Positions 2,963-10,614 of a stretch of 36,504 nt of DNA are shown piece by piece. Location: NCBI GenBank assembly GCA_023481285.1, contig JAMCWL010000081.1, forward strand, positions 8,342-44,845, read 5' to 3'. Below the pieces are notes generated by a model. That model was given only the letters and a program-made list of their open reading frames with translations, searched no databases and was not told the origin of the DNA. The stretch's first letter is position 1; each line of letters opens with the position of its first letter. Source of the stretch: Actinomycetota bacterium (lineage in GTDB: Bacteria; Actinomycetota; Aquicultoria; Aquicultorales; JAMCWL01). The translations under genes were made by a program, and so were the position numbers.

Positions 2963-2994
2963 TTATGGGCCGCTTTCCTTAAAGCGGCCCATAA
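2963..2994 (+). terminator. Strong palindromic hairpin between pilB and pilT
   Basis: A perfect 14-bp inverted repeat (2963-2976 and 2981-2994, TTATGGGCCGCTTT on the left arm) encloses a CCTT loop. It is followed only by TTCTTG, so it is not a textbook T-run terminator, but the stem is very stable and would form in RNA from either strand. It probably ends the pilB transcript. Its right half overlaps the -35 box of the candidate sigma-28 promoter for pilT. Confidence 0.6.
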
Positions 2995-3007
2995 TTCTTG
3001 CCGATAG
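2980..3007 (+). promoter_or_regulatory. Candidate sigma-28 (FliA/SigD-type) promoter for pilT
   Basis: TAAA (2980-2983), a 16-base spacer and GCCGATAG (3000-3007). The -10 matches the sigma-28 consensus GCCGATAA at 7 of 8 positions; the spacer is one base longer than the classic 15. The pilT ribosome site lies about 25 bases downstream. It is weaker than the pilin and pilM sites, but stands at an equivalent place. Confidence 0.4.
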
Positions 3008-4146: not shown

Positions 4147-5361
4147 ATGGCAAGCAGTTTCGTCTATAAGGTGAGGGACAAGCAGGGCAAGTTGATATCC
4201 GGCTCCCTCGAGGGAGATTCGATGACCGCCGTCGTGACCAAGCTCCGTCAGATGGGCTACGTCGTCGTCGACGTCAGTGAGAAGAGCCTTACCTCAAAAG
4301 AACTGACCATCCCGGGTTTATCGAATCGGATAAAATCGAAAGATCTCACGATTTTCAGCCGGCAGTTCGCAACTATGATCAACGCCGGCCTTTCGCTCAC
4401 CAAATCCCTGGCCATACTAGCCGAGCAGACGGAGAGCAAGGCGCTTCGGAAGATCGTCGGGGAGATTCTCCAGGATGTGGAGAAAGGACGGGCGCTTTCA
4501 GAGGCGCTGATCAAAAATGCGCGCGTCTTCCCGTCGATCTTCATCAACATGGTCAAGGCCGGGGAGGCCGGAGGCGTTCTCGACGAGGTCCTGTTGAGGG
4601 TCGCCGATCACTTTGAGAGCGAGGCGGCCATCAAATCCAAGATCAAATCGGCGATGGCCTACCCTACGGTCATGTTCGGGATGTCGATGCTCATAACTTT
4701 CGTTCTCATCACCTTCATCGTACCGATTTTCGCTAAGATGTTCACCGAGATGGGCGGTTCGCTACCAGCGCCAACGGCGTTCCTCTTGGCCCTCAGCGCT
4801 TTCATGCAGAGATTCTGGTGGCTCATGTTCATCTTAGGCATAGGCGCGTACCTGGCGTTCCGGTCGTACAAGAGGACGGAAAAGGGCCGGACGAACGTGG
4901 ACAACATCAAATTGAAGCTCCCCATCTTTGGGAAGCTGACCCAGAAGATGTCGATCGGGCGCTTCAGCCGGACGCTGGGCACCCTTCTCACCAGCGGTGT
5001 TCCGATTCTCCAGGCGCTTGATATTGTGGCCGACAGCGCCGGGAACGCCATCGTCGCCAGGGCGGTAAAGGCGACGAGGGCCAGCATCAAAGAGGGCGAG
5101 ACGATCGCCAAGCCGCTCACGGGCGAGAAGGTCTTCCCGCCGATGGTCGTCCAGATGATAGCGGTTGGCGAGGAGACGGGCGCTCTCGACACGATGCTCT
5201 CGAAGATCGCCGATTTCTATGACGCGGAGGTCACGACGACCGTCGAAACGCTCACCTCGGTCCTCGAGCCCGTCCTGATCGTCTCGATGGGTCTCATAAT
5301 CGGTGGCGTCCTCATCTCGCTTTACATGCCGATGTTCAGCATTATTTCGCTAATTAAGTAA
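4147..5361 (+). CDS. pilC: Type IV pilus inner-membrane platform protein PilC
   Basis: A 404-residue PilC/GspF protein, the polytopic platform on which PilB and PilT act. It shows the two tandem T2SSF domains with the family's repeated pattern: FSRQFATMINAGLSLTKSLA near residue 75 and FSRTLGTLLTSGVPILQALD near residue 275. Each is followed by a KAGEAGG or AVGEETGAL segment. Membrane segments lie near 171-195, 222-240 and at the C-terminus (about 374-398). The ATG is preceded by GGGGTGA. The last 12 bases overlap the 3' end of the convergent STT3-like gene. Confidence 0.96.
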   Translation: MASSFVYKVRDKQGKLISGSLEGDSMTAVVTKLRQMGYVVVDVSEKSLTSKELTIPGLSNRIKSKDLTIFSRQFATMINAGLSLTKSLAILAEQTESKALRKIVGEILQDVEKGRALSEALIKNARVFPSIFINMVKAGEAGGVLDEVLLRVADHFESEAAIKSKIKSAMAYPTVMFGMSMLITFVLITFIVPIFAKMFTEMGGSLPAPTAFLLALSAFMQRFWWLMFILGIGAYLAFRSYKRTEKGRTNVDNIKLKLPIFGKLTQKMSIGRFSRTLGTLLTSGVPILQALDIVADSAGNAIVARAVKATRASIKEGETIAKPLTGEKVFPPMVVQMIAVGEETGALDTMLSKIADFYDAEVTTTVETLTSVLEPVLIVSMGLIIGGVLISLYMPMFSIISLIK

Positions 5362-7695
5362 GGGAGCTTCCAACACTATCGACTTGCCCTGTGAGACGTC
5401 GCTTTCCGCTATATCGACGGGATAGGTCTTGCCGGCTATCGACACCTTGAAGGTGTCCGCTTTGACCGGATAGCGGCCGCTTTTCGTGGCATAGGGTAGA
5501 AAGATTTCGAACCTCCCGTCAGCCCCGGCTTTTCTCGTTAACTTCCAGTCGACCGCTTTAGCGCCCTTCGGCCTTATCTTGGTACTTATTGCAGCCACGG
5601 TACCGGGAGCCGCCTTAACGCTGAGCCGTGCTCCTTCAACCAGCTCGAAAAGCATAGTGGCGTACTCGGAGTCTCCACCTGTCACATTGATCAGGCGAAA
5701 GCGTTGGAGGGGCTCGGCCCCTTCCTTCTCGTTGCCCGCGCCCCAAAAGCGGTGCATGCGGACGTTGGTAAGTTGCATGTAGTCACGCCGGGTGATGTCC
5801 TGTTTAGTCGCCAGGTGAGCTCTCTTGTATGGATCCGGCCCGGATTCCCCGATCTCCTCGACCTTGCCCGTCCATGGGCTAAGCTCGTCCTGGAGTATTA
5901 TATAGCGTAGGCGAAGTTCCTTCATGAGCTTGACCGCCTCGGCTTCGGTTCTCGACTGGAAAATCCGGTTCGAAGCGATGATCCCGTCGATTCCCGTCTC
6001 GTGGTTCCCGGTCGTCAGAGTTGGTCGCTCCGCAATGAGCTCGACCAATTCACCATAGCTCCACTCGGCGACAATGCCGTATTCAGGCGAGCGGTTTGGC
6101 TCATAGTAATTGCTCACCTTCGGGGTGTTTTCCCTGATCCATTCGAGCATCTTAACGCGGTTGACGTCTACCATGTATCCGGACGCTGACATCCAGAAGA
6201 TAAGGTAACTGGAGAAGGCGATTGTTGCGACAAGCCATGCAGTGGTGGTCGCCGGTCGCTCCAGTCGCTCTCCGCCAATAGCTCCGACAATCTTCCCTAC
6301 CGACTCGGAGAGCTTGGCGATGAGGAGGGCGAAAGAGAGGACGATGACCGGAGTGAAAAGAAATACATAGTATCGGACCATGAGGGCATAGAACCCTGCG
6401 ATTATGAACCAGATGAAAAAAAGCAGTCTCCCAAAGCCCAGCCGGCGGCTGACGATCGCCTCGCGAGCACCGACAATTAATCCGAGAGGGAGAAGATATA
6501 CGAGCGCCGAGAGGGAGACGAAGACGTTTTGCGGTCCGTCGGCAAAGAGAGGCTTAAGTTGCTGGGTAACTCTCCCCAATGGATAGTAGGCAATGCTTCT
6601 GTAGAAGCCTCGAACGATCTGTTCGCCGAGACCGGGGAGGAAGAGAGGGATCGCAGCTATGACGAGATAGAGGCCGAATAAAGCCGCTACTCGTATTATC
6701 TGACGATTAACCAGAGAGGCATCAATAGCACGGGATAGGACGAGTATGCCCGCCAGGCCGATAAGTAGGACCGGCTGGAAAAGGGAGAGCCCCGAAAAAG
6801 AGAGGCGATTCTCAAACCAGGGCGTGGCCAAGTAGAGCATGAGCATCGAAAGACCCGACGAAGCCATAGTCAGCCCGCCTATCCGGGAGACATGCCGCCT
6901 CTCGTCTTCCGCCAGGACGAGAAGGCCGATCATGAAGGCGACTCCAAGAATGGCGATGACCAGTATTGCGCTTAAGGATATGAGCAGCGTGAAGGTGACT
7001 GTTAATCCCGCAAGCACGGCTAGCGCTCCGGCTCTCCGGCTCTCGCCACTCGAGTAGTAATGGTGCGAGCCGACGAGGAGTGCGATGGTCGACATGTAAA
7101 GAAGAATATCCGCGAGGTGATGATCGACCATCCCGAGCGACGAGACGGCACTTGCCACCGGGAGATAGAGGCTGACGAAAACCGCCGCATGTCCAGCTCG
7201 CCTGCCAAATAAACGATTTCCGGCATAGTAGGCAGGGAAAACGAAAAAGAGGCCGAGGATCAAGGGGAAAAGGGCGGCGGCCGATGGGATTGACATGTTC
7301 GTTGCGCGATTAACCGCCAGGGCAAAGCTCGCCTCGATGAAGGCCCATATCGGCGGGAGCTGCTGCTTCATTCCCCAGGGAAAGTTGGCGAACGAATCGA
7401 ACATCGGCAGGCTCGGGTATTTGCGCGAGATCAGATCGATCAAGCGGAAAAAGCGAGCGGCATCGGAGTCCAAAACATTTGTGTGGGGGTTGCCGAGGGC
7501 GCCGGGGATGAAGAAGGTCCTCACGTAGACGGCGTAAACCAGGGCTAATGTGTATCCGGCCTTAACCACAACGCCTTTAATACGGTCAAGGCGGATGACG
7601 GGCCTCTCCTCGACCGGTCTCTCTTGAGCGTCTATTGCCATAATCTGAGGCACCCGTTTGGTTTCATTGTCGGGCTTAGCATATATCATTGGCAC
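5350..7695 (-). CDS. STT3/PglB/AglB-family oligosaccharyltransferase-like membrane protein
   Basis: A 781-residue GT-C protein with about a dozen hydrophobic segments (about 45-470, plus one at 485-503) and a soluble C-terminal domain, the layout of STT3/AglB oligosaccharyltransferases that move a lipid-linked glycan to Asn of secreted proteins. Visible motifs: DSD (76-78), corresponding to the first DxD-type motif; SLGMVDHH (about 186-193), like the archaeal AglB second acidic motif; and EWSYG (544-548), a variant of the WWDYG acceptor motif followed by the family-like stretch ELVELIAERPT. The usual luminal SVSE/TIXE glutamate may be Gln (VTQQ, 376-379). The end looks like a beta-sandwich. 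The GTG start at 7695 is uncertain; ATG at 7689 or the ATG of MAIDAQERP are alternatives. It is convergent with pilC and divergent from the pilin, which suggests pilin or surface-protein glycosylation (inference). Confidence 0.78.
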   Translation of the reverse strand: MPMIYAKPDNETKRVPQIMAIDAQERPVEERPVIRLDRIKGVVVKAGYTLALVYAVYVRTFFIPGALGNPHTNVLDSDAARFFRLIDLISRKYPSLPMFDSFANFPWGMKQQLPPIWAFIEASFALAVNRATNMSIPSAAALFPLILGLFFVFPAYYAGNRLFGRRAGHAAVFVSLYLPVASAVSSLGMVDHHLADILLYMSTIALLVGSHHYYSSGESRRAGALAVLAGLTVTFTLLISLSAILVIAILGVAFMIGLLVLAEDERRHVSRIGGLTMASSGLSMLMLYLATPWFENRLSFSGLSLFQPVLLIGLAGILVLSRAIDASLVNRQIIRVAALFGLYLVIAAIPLFLPGLGEQIVRGFYRSIAYYPLGRVTQQLKPLFADGPQNVFVSLSALVYLLPLGLIVGAREAIVSRRLGFGRLLFFIWFIIAGFYALMVRYYVFLFTPVIVLSFALLIAKLSESVGKIVGAIGGERLERPATTTAWLVATIAFSSYLIFWMSASGYMVDVNRVKMLEWIRENTPKVSNYYEPNRSPEYGIVAEWSYGELVELIAERPTLTTGNHETGIDGIIASNRIFQSRTEAEAVKLMKELRLRYIILQDELSPWTGKVEEIGESGPDPYKRAHLATKQDITRRDYMQLTNVRMHRFWGAGNEKEGAEPLQRFRLINVTGGDSEYATMLFELVEGARLSVKAAPGTVAAISTKIRPKGAKAVDWKLTRKAGADGRFEIFLPYATKSGRYPVKADTFKVSIAGKTYPVDIAESDVSQGKSIVLEAPLLN

Positions 7696-7786: not shown

Positions 7787-7813
7787 TAAAGGTTTGTCTG
7801 GTGTTGCCGATAA
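7787..7813 (+). promoter_or_regulatory. Sigma-28-type promoter for the major pilin
   Basis: TAAAGGTT, 11 bases, GCCGATAA. This matches the FliA consensus TAAAGTTT-N11-GCCGATAA at 15 of 16 positions with exact spacing. The predicted transcript start near 7820 lies just upstream of the c-di-GMP riboswitch (7839). No competing sigma-70 site is obvious. Confidence 0.75.
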
Positions 7814-7838
7814 TAACGCTAGCGAATGCAGGTCCGCA

Positions 7839-7931
7839 CCTTGTCAGGTCACGAAAGGGCAAACCCGTCGCAAGACGGGGACGCAAAGCCACGGAGCTCA
7901 ACGAGCTGGCCGGGTTGCCGAAGTAACAAGG
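7839..7931 (+). ncRNA. Class I cyclic-di-GMP (GEMM) riboswitch in the pilin leader
   Basis: The sequence reads GGTCACGAAAGGGCAAACC then, after a GCAA-capped hairpin (CCCGTC/GACGGG), the conserved GGACGCAAAGCC, then a second hairpin (GAGCTC/GAGCTG region) closing with GCCGGGTTGCCGAAG. The order of conserved blocks, the GNRA loop and the closing stem CCTTGT (7839-7844) with ACAAGG (7926-7931) are those of GEMM/c-di-GMP-I aptamers such as Vc2 of Vibrio cholerae. The run GGG before CAAACC keeps the G typical of c-di-GMP binding rather than the A common in cGAMP-responsive variants. It lies in the 5' leader of the pilin gene, so pilin output should respond to c-di-GMP; whether ON or OFF cannot be told. 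Confidence 0.93.
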
Positions 7932-7946
7932 CAAGAGCCAATCACC

Positions 7947-7972
7947 CAAGTCCGTGGGAGCCCGCGGACTTG
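7947..7972 (+). terminator. Hairpin downstream of the aptamer, candidate expression platform
   Basis: CAAGTCCGTGG (7947-7957) pairs with CCGCGGACTTG (7962-7972) with one G-U wobble and a four-base loop, followed by CTTTGCG. It sits between the aptamer and the pilin ribosome site, where a riboswitch-controlled terminator is expected. The T-run is only three bases, so intrinsic termination is not certain. Confidence 0.5.
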
Positions 7973-8024
7973 CTTTGCGAAAAGAACGAAAGTTTCGGAG
8001 TCTAATGAAGGGGAGGTGAAAAAG

Positions 8025-8411
8025 ATGCTTACGAAGCTTAGGAGCGAGCGGGGCTTTACGCTCATCGAATTGATGGTGGTCATCCTTATTATCGGTATTT
8101 TGGTCGCTATCGCCGTCCCCGTCTTCTCGGCCGCTCGCGAGAACGCCTACAGGAGGACCTGCCAGGCTAACCTGAGAACGCTCGACGGCGCGGTCCAGAC
8201 CTTCAAGGCGAACAGCACAAACGAAAGGTGGCCGGATGCGCTGGTCGATCTCTCGAGCAATAACTATATCAAGTCGGTGCCGACCTGTCCGAAGGCCGGA
8301 GGTACAGCATACGCTTATACCATTACATCGAACACCCAGTCGAACTCACCGACGATCCGTTGCCCGGGTATCGTGAACAGCAACGCCGAGTTCACCGGTC
8401 ACACCTACTAA
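8025..8411 (+). CDS. pilA: Major type IV pilin (PilA-like)
   Basis: A 128-residue prepilin. The leader MLTKLRSERG is followed by the prepilin-peptidase site G10|F11 (GFTLIEL), Glu at mature position 5, and a hydrophobic helix to about residue 33. The globular part has three cysteines (C46, C88, C113), of which C88/C113 could form the C-terminal disulphide loop. A single N-X-S/T sequon, NST at residue 63, is present without an acidic residue at -2. The start is the ATG 8025 with GGGGAGG upstream; the longer upstream reading frame runs through the riboswitch and is not real. Control: sigma-28-like promoter, c-di-GMP riboswitch and a strong terminator after the gene. Small size, dedicated leader and monocistronic layout indicate the main pilus subunit. 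Confidence 0.92.
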   Translation: MLTKLRSERGFTLIELMVVILIIGILVAIAVPVFSAARENAYRRTCQANLRTLDGAVQTFKANSTNERWPDALVDLSSNNYIKSVPTCPKAGGTAYAYTITSNTQSNSPTIRCPGIVNSNAEFTGHTY

Positions 8412-8427
8412 AAGCGGACGGCAACAG

Positions 8428-8461
8428 AAAAGCGGCGGCCGAAAGGTCGCCGCTTTTTTTT
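8428..8461 (+). terminator. Strong rho-independent terminator of the pilin gene
   Basis: A 13-bp stem with a GAAA tetraloop (left arm from AAAAGCGGCGG, right arm to CGCCGCTTTT) runs straight into a tract of eight Ts. It ends the pilin transcript 16 bp after the stop, consistent with a highly expressed monocistronic gene. Confidence 0.93.
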
Positions 8462-8610: not shown

Positions 8611-10614
8611 TTGGCCGAAGCCGTTGAGTCGCAGCATCAAGCCGATAGCGCCACCTATGATGTCGGGCGAATTCTCGATCGTATCGGCGCCGGCTTTATC
8701 TACCTGGCCGTGGTCCTGATACCGCTTGCAGTAGCACCTTTTGCTCAGGACCAGGTGATGGGCGCGAAGCTTATCACCATGCGCATCCTCGTATCTCTTG
8801 CCGCCTTTACCTGGTGCCTTAAGGGGATGGCCGAAGGATTCCGAGTAAGGTGGAGCGTCGTTTTCTGGCCGGCTCTTTGCTTTCTTGTGCTGTCGCTCAT
8901 TTCAACCGCTTTTTCGATCAGCCCGTTGACAAGCATTTTCGGTACTTACCAGCGGTACGAAGGCTTTTTAAGCTTACTCACCTACACCACACTCCTTTTC
9001 CTAAGCGTTCAATATTTTGACGAGGAGCAAAAGGTTTTTGGTCTGGCGAAGGTCATGGTGGTCACCGCCGTCGCCGTCTCCATTTACGGGCTTCTTCAGT
9101 TCGCCGGCTACGATCCGATAGCCTGGGGAGCGGCGAGCTTTGAAAAGAGCCGTACCATCGCCACCTTGGGAAACCCGATCGTCCTCGGCGGTTACCTGGC
9201 GGTCTCGCTAACTGTTTCTGTCGGTCTCTTAATAACCGCTAGAAACGCAAGGTGGGTGGCAGTATGGGCGGCTGCCAGTACGGTTATCGCTGCTTCGCTC
9301 CTTGTGACTCTCTCACGCGGAGCGTGGCTGGGGGCGCTCGCAGGTGTTGCTTTAGCGATTATCTTAACAGCCAGGGCTCACAAGAATCGCCGTCGATGCG
9401 TGATGACCGGGGTGGCCATAGTGGCGATCCTGATTCTAATCACCAGTTTTACCCTTGTTATCGGGGACAAAACGATAGTCGGGTCGAGATTGCTCTCGCT
9501 GGCAAATCCGCTCACCGGAAGCGGGGAAAGCAGGGTAGAAATCTGGAAAAGCGCGCTCTCAATGACGAAGGAGCGCCCGGTCTTTGGGTATGGTCCCGAC
9601 ACCTTTAAGCTCGCTTTCCCGCTCCACGAGACGCTCGCCTCAGCGAGGTTGTTTCCCCAGACGCTCGCCGACAACGCGCACAACATCATTTTGCAAACCG
9701 CCGCTACCCTGGGGATTCCGGCGCTTATAGCCTTCCTTGCGATTTTTCTCATCTTCTACGTTGAGTTGTTTAGGAAGAGAGCGGTCACTGCCGGGGCGGC
9801 TCTTTTTGTGGCCGCCGTCGCCGCCTACTTCGTCCAGGGGCTTTTAAGCGTTACCGCCGTCGCCACCTCCTTCTTGCCGTGGCTTGCCATGGGCGTGGCT
9901 CTCTCCCCGGGCGCCAAGGAGATCACGGCAACTTCACGCTCGACCATCTTGAAGTACGCCGCCATGTTTGCCGGCATCCTCTCCGTTGCTTCGATAGCTC
10001 AGTCGGCGTTCTTTTTTGCAGCCGACGTCGAGTCCGGCCAGGGCATTATGGCTATCGGCCACGGCGACCTGCAAAACGGTTTCGCTAAACTTACAACAGC
10101 GGCGAGCCTTAACCCCTTCAGCGATCTTTATGTCAGGCAGCTTGCCGGTGTGATGCAGGGGGCGGCAAGGGCCGATGAGAACCGAGAGCGTTATAACGAG
10201 TCACTGACGACGATCAAGCGTGCGGTAAAGCTTGCCCCTGATGACGTCGATAACTACATCGCGCTTGGGGATTTTTACGCTTACGGCGGTGTGACGTATG
10301 ACTCCAAGTATTACGACCGGGCGATCGAAGCTCTAGACAAGGCGGTTGAGCTAAGAAAGTACTCGCCTTCGGGTCACCGAATTCTGGGTTTGGTCTACTT
10401 GAAAACGGGGGAGGCGCGTAAGGCGCTATCTGAACTGAACAAAGCCCTGGAAGTCGATCCCCGAGACGCCCGCGCCCTCCTCTATGAGGGCCAAGCTTAT
10501 GAAAAAGTCGGTGATAAACGAGGGGCCCTTGAAGCTTACCGGACATCGTTCAAGGCCCGCCCGGATTTTATCGAGGCCAAAAAGGCGCTGGACAGGCTGG
10601 AGAAGGAAATTTAG
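8611..10614 (+). CDS. O-antigen ligase/Wzy_C-type membrane protein with C-terminal TPRs
   Basis: A 667-residue polytopic protein with about 12 hydrophobic segments in residues 28-470 and TPR-like repeats in the last 140 residues (ALDKAVELRKYSPSGHRILG, ALSELNKALEVDPRDARALL, ALEAYRTSFKARPDF). The Wzy_C/O-antigen ligase region shows RGAWLGALAGV, GYGPDTFKLAFP and DNAHNIILQTAATLGIPAL, the His-containing signature of this superfamily. Members polymerise or ligate undecaprenyl-linked sugars, and the PglL/TfpO subgroup transfers them to Ser/Thr of pilins. The place right after the pilin gene and within the pilus operon suggests a pilin O-glycosyltransferase, but a surface-polysaccharide ligase is possible. 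The TTG start is supported by GGAGG at 8600-8604. Confidence 0.8.
   Translation: MAEAVESQHQADSATYDVGRILDRIGAGFIYLAVVLIPLAVAPFAQDQVMGAKLITMRILVSLAAFTWCLKGMAEGFRVRWSVVFWPALCFLVLSLISTAFSISPLTSIFGTYQRYEGFLSLLTYTTLLFLSVQYFDEEQKVFGLAKVMVVTAVAVSIYGLLQFAGYDPIAWGAASFEKSRTIATLGNPIVLGGYLAVSLTVSVGLLITARNARWVAVWAAASTVIAASLLVTLSRGAWLGALAGVALAIILTARAHKNRRRCVMTGVAIVAILILITSFTLVIGDKTIVGSRLLSLANPLTGSGESRVEIWKSALSMTKERPVFGYGPDTFKLAFPLHETLASARLFPQTLADNAHNIILQTAATLGIPALIAFLAIFLIFYVELFRKRAVTAGAALFVAAVAAYFVQGLLSVTAVATSFLPWLAMGVALSPGAKEITATSRSTILKYAAMFAGILSVASIAQSAFFFAADVESGQGIMAIGHGDLQNGFAKLTTAASLNPFSDLYVRQLAGVMQGAARADENRERYNESLTTIKRAVKLAPDDVDNYIALGDFYAYGGVTYDSKYYDRAIEALDKAVELRKYSPSGHRILGLVYLKTGEARKALSELNKALEVDPRDARALLYEGQAYEKVGDKRGALEAYRTSFKARPDFIEAKKALDRLEKEI

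Follow-up and report, generated by a model that had tools for sequence, protein, structure and literature searches.

We analyzed a 36,504-nt window of DNA from an uncultured Actinomycetota bacterium (assembly GCA_023481285.1, contig JAMCWL010000081.1, positions 8,342-44,845 of the forward strand), and studied the interval 7787-8411, which begins with a promoter and ends with the stop codon of a pilin gene. The pilin gene lies inside a type IV pilus cluster that also encodes PilB, PilT, PilC and PilM. In the 5' to 3' direction, the interval contains a sigma-28 site, a predicted transcription start, a c-di-GMP aptamer, a hairpin, a Shine-Dalgarno (SD) sequence and the prepilin gene (Table 1). 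Because a strong intrinsic terminator follows the gene, the pilin probably forms its own transcription unit.

Table 1. Features of the pilin leader and related elements, numbered from the first base of the window.
Feature	Position	Strand	Details and basis
Second WhiG-type site, TAAA-N16-GCCGATAG	2980-3007	+	One mismatch; 34 nt upstream of pilT
Sigma-28/WhiG-type promoter, TAAAGGTT-N11-GCCGATAA	7787-7813	+	-35 at 7787-7794, -10 at 7806-7813; sequence
Predicted transcription start	7820-7821	+	About 7 nt past the -10; from promoter position
Possible antiterminator strand, GCAGGTCCGC	7828-7837	+	Complementary to 7964-7973, 10 bp with one G-U
Outer P1 helix closing the aptamer (inferred)	7839-7844 (CCTTGT) with 7926-7931 (ACAAGG)	+	Sequence complementarity
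c-di-GMP-I-GGC aptamer (class I c-di-GMP riboswitch)	7849-7923	+	Rfam RF03167; conserved core
Terminator-like hairpin, putative expression platform	7948-7971	+	Arms 7948-7957 and 7962-7971, 10 bp, loop GAGC; weak U-tract 3' of it (GCTTTGCG)
Good Shine-Dalgarno region, GGGGAGGTG	8013-8021	+	ggggaggtg; sequence
Type IV prepilin gene, 128 aa (KLRSERGFTLIELMVVILIIG...)	8025-8411	+	ATG at 8025; PF07963, TIGR02532; in the order, orthologs follow the same leader
Intrinsic terminator past the pilin, AAGCGGCGGCC-GAAA-GGTCGCCGCTT + T8	8430-8461	+	Sequence

With the Rfam covariance model RF03167, the aptamer scored 70.3 bits (E=7.5e-15), where the gathering score is 59. This was the best model of the c-di-GMP-I clan (CL00126), and one more family of the clan also scored above its own threshold. 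The core GGCAAACC...GACGCAAAGCC is conserved, including the G and A positions that contact the ligand, i.e., the G before GC and the A after GACGC, which we take from Vc2 to be the canonical c-di-GMP-type positions. Together with the many GGDEF domains encoded in the genome, they point to c-di-GMP as the ligand and speak against recognition of another cyclic dinucleotide, e.g., 3',3'-cGAMP. The latter is very unlikely, even though the GGC variant fitted better than the canonical c-di-GMP-I model and Geobacter relatives of the GEMM-I type sense cGAMP (PMC9262584).

The downstream protein carries the class III signal (N-terminal methylation motif) of type IV prepilins, as is apparent from matches to PF07963 (N_methyl, 36.3 bits) and TIGR02532 (34.3 bits, cut-off 16.3). 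Its scores with equivalog models were all below cut-off. A role as major pilin is plausible, and the single-gene transcript is at most suggestive of it.

The promoter has 15 of 16 consensus bases at exact spacing, and the leader contains the pattern of WhiG-regulon promoters, TAAA-N15/16-GCCGATAA. The chance of finding such a sigma-28 site within a 300-nt leader is about 4e-5. When a spacer of 14-16 was allowed (TAAA-N14-16-GCCGATAA), the 2.17-Mb genome (115 contigs, 92% complete) gave seven matches versus about 0.5 expected from base composition, and the reversed control pattern gave one. The first-pass annotation had listed a near-perfect FliA-type promoter, a c-di-GMP-I aptamer for which it expected a covariance-model hit, a downstream hairpin and a pilin, and all of these parts are indeed present.

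The same annotation linked pilin synthesis to the motility sigma factor and proposed a search for fliA or sigD. Only one protein of the FliA/WhiG family scored over the cut-off in this genome, so a sigma-28-family gene exists. It encodes a WhiG ortholog (NF004935, 381.6 bits, cut-off 343; closest PDB entry S. venezuelae WhiG 6pfj, E=3e-91), and it adjoins xerC and rpsB-type genes of the ribosomal/elongation-factor region. Neither flagellin (PF00669) nor FlhA (PF00771) gave a match in the 92%-complete genome, and coupling to a flagellar FliA was rejected on this basis.

WhiG is the actinobacterial relative of sigma-28, and RsiG is an anti-sigma factor whose capture of WhiG depends on c-di-GMP. 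A search with the motif E-X3-S-X2-R-X3-H-X3-D identified an RsiG of 101 aa (EEKISFRRRVLHGKID), a link that the first-pass annotation had left out. The protein scored 60.8 bits with PF22802 (cut-off 27), its closest PDB entries are the Rubrobacter RsiG structures 7lq2-7lq4 (E=3e-9), and it contains a single c-di-GMP motif of the form E-X3-S-X2-R-X3-[QH]-X3-D. By analogy with the homologs described in PMC8325347, it would bind both c-di-GMP and WhiG. The 11 GGDEF matches in the genome indicate that the host probably makes c-di-GMP. We infer that WhiG uses the pilin promoter and that RsiG controls this use. With a WhiG ortholog and RsiG present and flagellin and FlhA lacking, the leader would join two c-di-GMP inputs and would not tie c-di-GMP to flagellar motility.

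The arrangement recurs in related genomes. RF03167 was found in 8 of the 12 genomes of the order, and in all eight a WhiG-type promoter precedes the aptamer and a prepilin follows it (in G001 the contig end falls within the pilin). In an alignment of these eight, CTAAAG and CCGATA are invariant and both the spacer and the promoter-to-aptamer stretch vary in sequence and length, which argues for promoter boxes rather than a part of the RNA.

RF03167 was present in 157 of the 397 Actinomycetota genomes sampled. A WhiG-type site scoring at least 10.5 out of 13 was present within 80 nt upstream of 56 of 94 aptamer loci, compared to 0/94 for matched control stretches 160 nt further upstream and 0.6% for dinucleotide shuffles; percentages for the phylum are only indicative, since the loci are best-scoring matches and related genomes are not independent. 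The spacer was always 15 or 16, though 14 was allowed, and 19 of 25 families were represented. Genes downstream of the WhiG-type promoters encode a prepilin N-terminus in 18 of 54 cases, and others resemble secreted proteins. RsiG occurred in 146 of the 157 genomes with RF03167 and in 100 of the 240 others, in counts that ignore phylogeny.

The remaining 38 of the 94 loci lack a good WhiG site, some having TATAAT-like boxes instead, so the aptamer does not require WhiG. Such boxes before the same aptamer would also fit a leader that is read by a housekeeping sigma factor, in which the sigma-28 site is a decoy and only the riboswitch matters. That possibility appears highly improbable for the pilin leader, in which no sigma-70-like site was reported; moreover, the sigma-28 boxes do not vary within the order and show strong enrichment across the phylum. 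In Rubrobacteraceae (G208, G250 and G372), a genome can have as many as 11 c-di-GMP-I-GGC matches, some of which are located behind TATAAT-like boxes and not behind WhiG sites.

When the GTDB genome collection was scanned with the pattern, at least 117 loci outside and inside the phylum were returned. A covariance model built from 18 aptamers and run on the 117 loci listed recovered class I aptamers in 22 of them, and the aptamer was at the position given by the pattern in 14 of 14 loci whose positions were checked among the matches listed. The aptamer-bearing loci listed belong to Desulfobacterota, Pseudomonadota (Thiobacillus), Nitrospirota, Armatimonadota (Fimbriimonadales), Planctomycetota, Bacillota and Actinomycetota. 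In four loci from Armatimonadota, mostly Fimbriimonadales (L076, L087, L105 and L112), a class I c-di-GMP aptamer follows an exact sigma-28 site. When pattern-scan matches were set aside, a sigma-28-type site was found at 10 of 60 non-actinobacterial aptamers, all in Desulfobacterota-type genomes. A coupling restricted to Actinomycetota is ruled out by the exact examples in several other phyla.

We know of no report of RsiG in the other phyla that carry the promoter-aptamer arrangement. RsiG is therefore not needed for the arrangement, and the association of promoter and aptamer is broader than RsiG. The first-pass annotation, which did not consider recurrence, had called the joint arrangement unusual; its presence in 8/8 aptamer-bearing members of the order, at 56/94 phylum loci and in several other phyla contradicts this.

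The direction in which the riboswitch acts is clearest in a sister family (f2), where strong intrinsic terminators lie between aptamer and SD, at the same place as the hairpin in the window. In predicted folds, enforcing the aptamer increased the terminator probability in four of the five genomes examined (0.05 to 1.00, 0.30 to 0.99, 0.60 to 1.00 and 0.52 to 0.75), and the fifth genome kept a value of 1.0. The case of L152 is the clearest: without ligand, its predicted fold has the 3' strand of the aptamer paired with the 5' arm of the terminator. Since aptamer enforcement raises the terminator probability, the modeling predicts an OFF riboswitch in this family, with the same sign as RsiG.

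An aptamer-coupled expression platform of this kind is clear in the sister family, not in the window. There, the hairpin is less terminator-like, with a weak U-tract and a near-zero probability in equilibrium folding with or without the aptamer, so the folding predicts neither OFF nor any other direction; an OFF step in the window too is a guess by analogy with the relatives. The SD directly adjoins the aptamer in many other families, which suggests translational control. For loci of this kind, an SD hidden in P1 was rejected as a general translational OFF switch, as only 8 of 38 cases were significant and the mean was no better than that of shuffles. Pairing of the aptamer core through CGCAAAGC/GCTTTGCG was rejected as a conserved switch as well, being present in the minimum-energy fold of the window and not conserved in relatives.

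The two c-di-GMP inputs might also have opposed signs: RsiG-WhiG would shut initiation at high c-di-GMP and the riboswitch would be ON, giving a pilin peak at intermediate c-di-GMP (band-pass). This would agree with C. difficile pilA1, which c-di-GMP activates through a class II riboswitch (PMC6200980), and with G. metallireducens pilM, where an ON switch belongs to the same aptamer family (PMC9262584). In the window, GCAGGTCCGC could pair with 7964-7973, which comprises the hairpin's 3' arm and two further bases, and this 10-bp pairing would break the hairpin and could form beside the folded aptamer; it appears in the predicted fold both with and without the aptamer enforced. On the other hand, the folds of the sister family point to OFF, and the long-range pairing is absent in relatives and may reflect chance complementarity. 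We regard opposed signs as rather unlikely.

Our preferred reading, to which we assign a probability of roughly 70%, is that the pilin leader is a serial c-di-GMP checkpoint, with RsiG-WhiG acting at initiation and the riboswitch acting afterwards. Judging from homologs, RNA polymerase with WhiG would start transcription near 7820, and single-motif RsiG loaded with c-di-GMP would capture WhiG, shutting the pilin promoter along with the remaining WhiG regulon. Transcripts that are nevertheless started would carry the class I aptamer and, with c-di-GMP as the presumed ligand, read the same messenger again ahead of pilin synthesis. If the ligand frees an intrinsic terminator, as folds predict for the sister family, both steps would repress at high c-di-GMP, and the pilin would be made only at low c-di-GMP.

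The genome has further exact WhiG-type sites, which lie upstream of genes for a GGDEF protein, a response regulator and an NlpC/P60 protein, and also upstream of a PilS-like kinase with an NtrC-like regulator and of a Tad pilus operon. In the window, the one-mismatch site before pilT (TIGR01420, 512.9 bits) suggests that the WhiG regulon includes another unit of the pilus cluster. The Tad/Flp operon has its exact site near 9430 of L019 (minus strand), and WhiG may therefore control two pilus systems that are unrelated to each other. The GGDEF gene (L021, 1193-2752, minus strand) lies directly behind its exact site, and feedback of the WhiG regulon on c-di-GMP through this gene is possible.

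Two neighbors of the pilin were also inspected. Divergent from the leader, positions 5350-7695 (minus strand) encode an STT3-type oligosaccharyltransferase, for which the best NCBIfam model was archaeal STT3 (TIGR04154) with 232 bits, below the cut-off of 450; glycosylation of the pilin by this protein is possible. Directly after the pilin, positions 8611-10614 (plus strand) encode a membrane and TPR protein with weak matches to O-antigen ligase/IctB-like proteins.

The closest known system is that of Rubrobacter, where the RsiG-WhiG pair was proposed to control type IV pili (PMC8325347). The R. radiotolerans pair binds c-di-GMP, and WhiG-type promoters with mapped starts occur upstream of DGC/PDE genes and within the type IV pilus cluster; according to the same work, no other sigma/anti-sigma pair is known to be a target of c-di-GMP (PMC8325347). 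The organism studied here resembles this unicellular actinobacterium in having WhiG, a single-motif RsiG, and WhiG-type promoters on type IV pilus and diguanylate cyclase genes. It differs from that account, in which riboswitches are unmentioned, in that the pilin transcript carries a c-di-GMP aptamer and in that WhiG-type sites also precede Tad pilus genes (PMC8325347).

A cyclic-dinucleotide riboswitch before pilus genes is shared with C. difficile pilA1 (Cdi-2-4; PMC6200980) and G. metallireducens pilM (PMC9262584). Unlike the aptamer here, that of pilA1 is class II and that of pilM has cGAMP as ligand, both switches being ON, and the accessible text of these papers describes no c-di-GMP input through a sigma-28/anti-sigma pair for either leader. 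The C. difficile flgB operon leader (Cdi-1-3/Cd1) likewise links class I c-di-GMP sensing with a sigma-28 factor. In that case the sigma factor is made under the control of the riboswitch, which governs flagellar genes including sigD, whereas here the sigma factor drives the riboswitch transcript.

The aptamer itself is a full-length RF03167 match over the gathering score, and the RF03167 literature found, as far as its text was accessible, does not mention an association with sigma-28/WhiG promoters. Each part was already known. For the combination of a sigma-28 promoter with a c-di-GMP aptamer, we found no published description in the searched part of the literature on RF03167 or on riboswitches with WhiG/FliA. 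We give even odds to the idea that bacteria generally use, as a module so far undescribed, a class I c-di-GMP riboswitch placed directly behind a sigma-28-type promoter, which in Actinomycetota would serve as a two-gate c-di-GMP filter for pilins and secreted proteins.

If WhiG targets commonly carry c-di-GMP riboswitches, one second messenger would check the same gene twice through unrelated sensors. With two gates, the response could become sharper or band-pass, and the riboswitch's sign would decide between these outcomes. The purpose of such a double check, whether a sharper threshold, lower leak or a band-pass, could be tested in cultivable Rubrobacteraceae. If the coupling is true, RF03167 would become a marker of the WhiG regulon and no longer be just an entry in a catalogue, and the coupling would help to explain the role of WhiG in non-sporulating actinobacteria.
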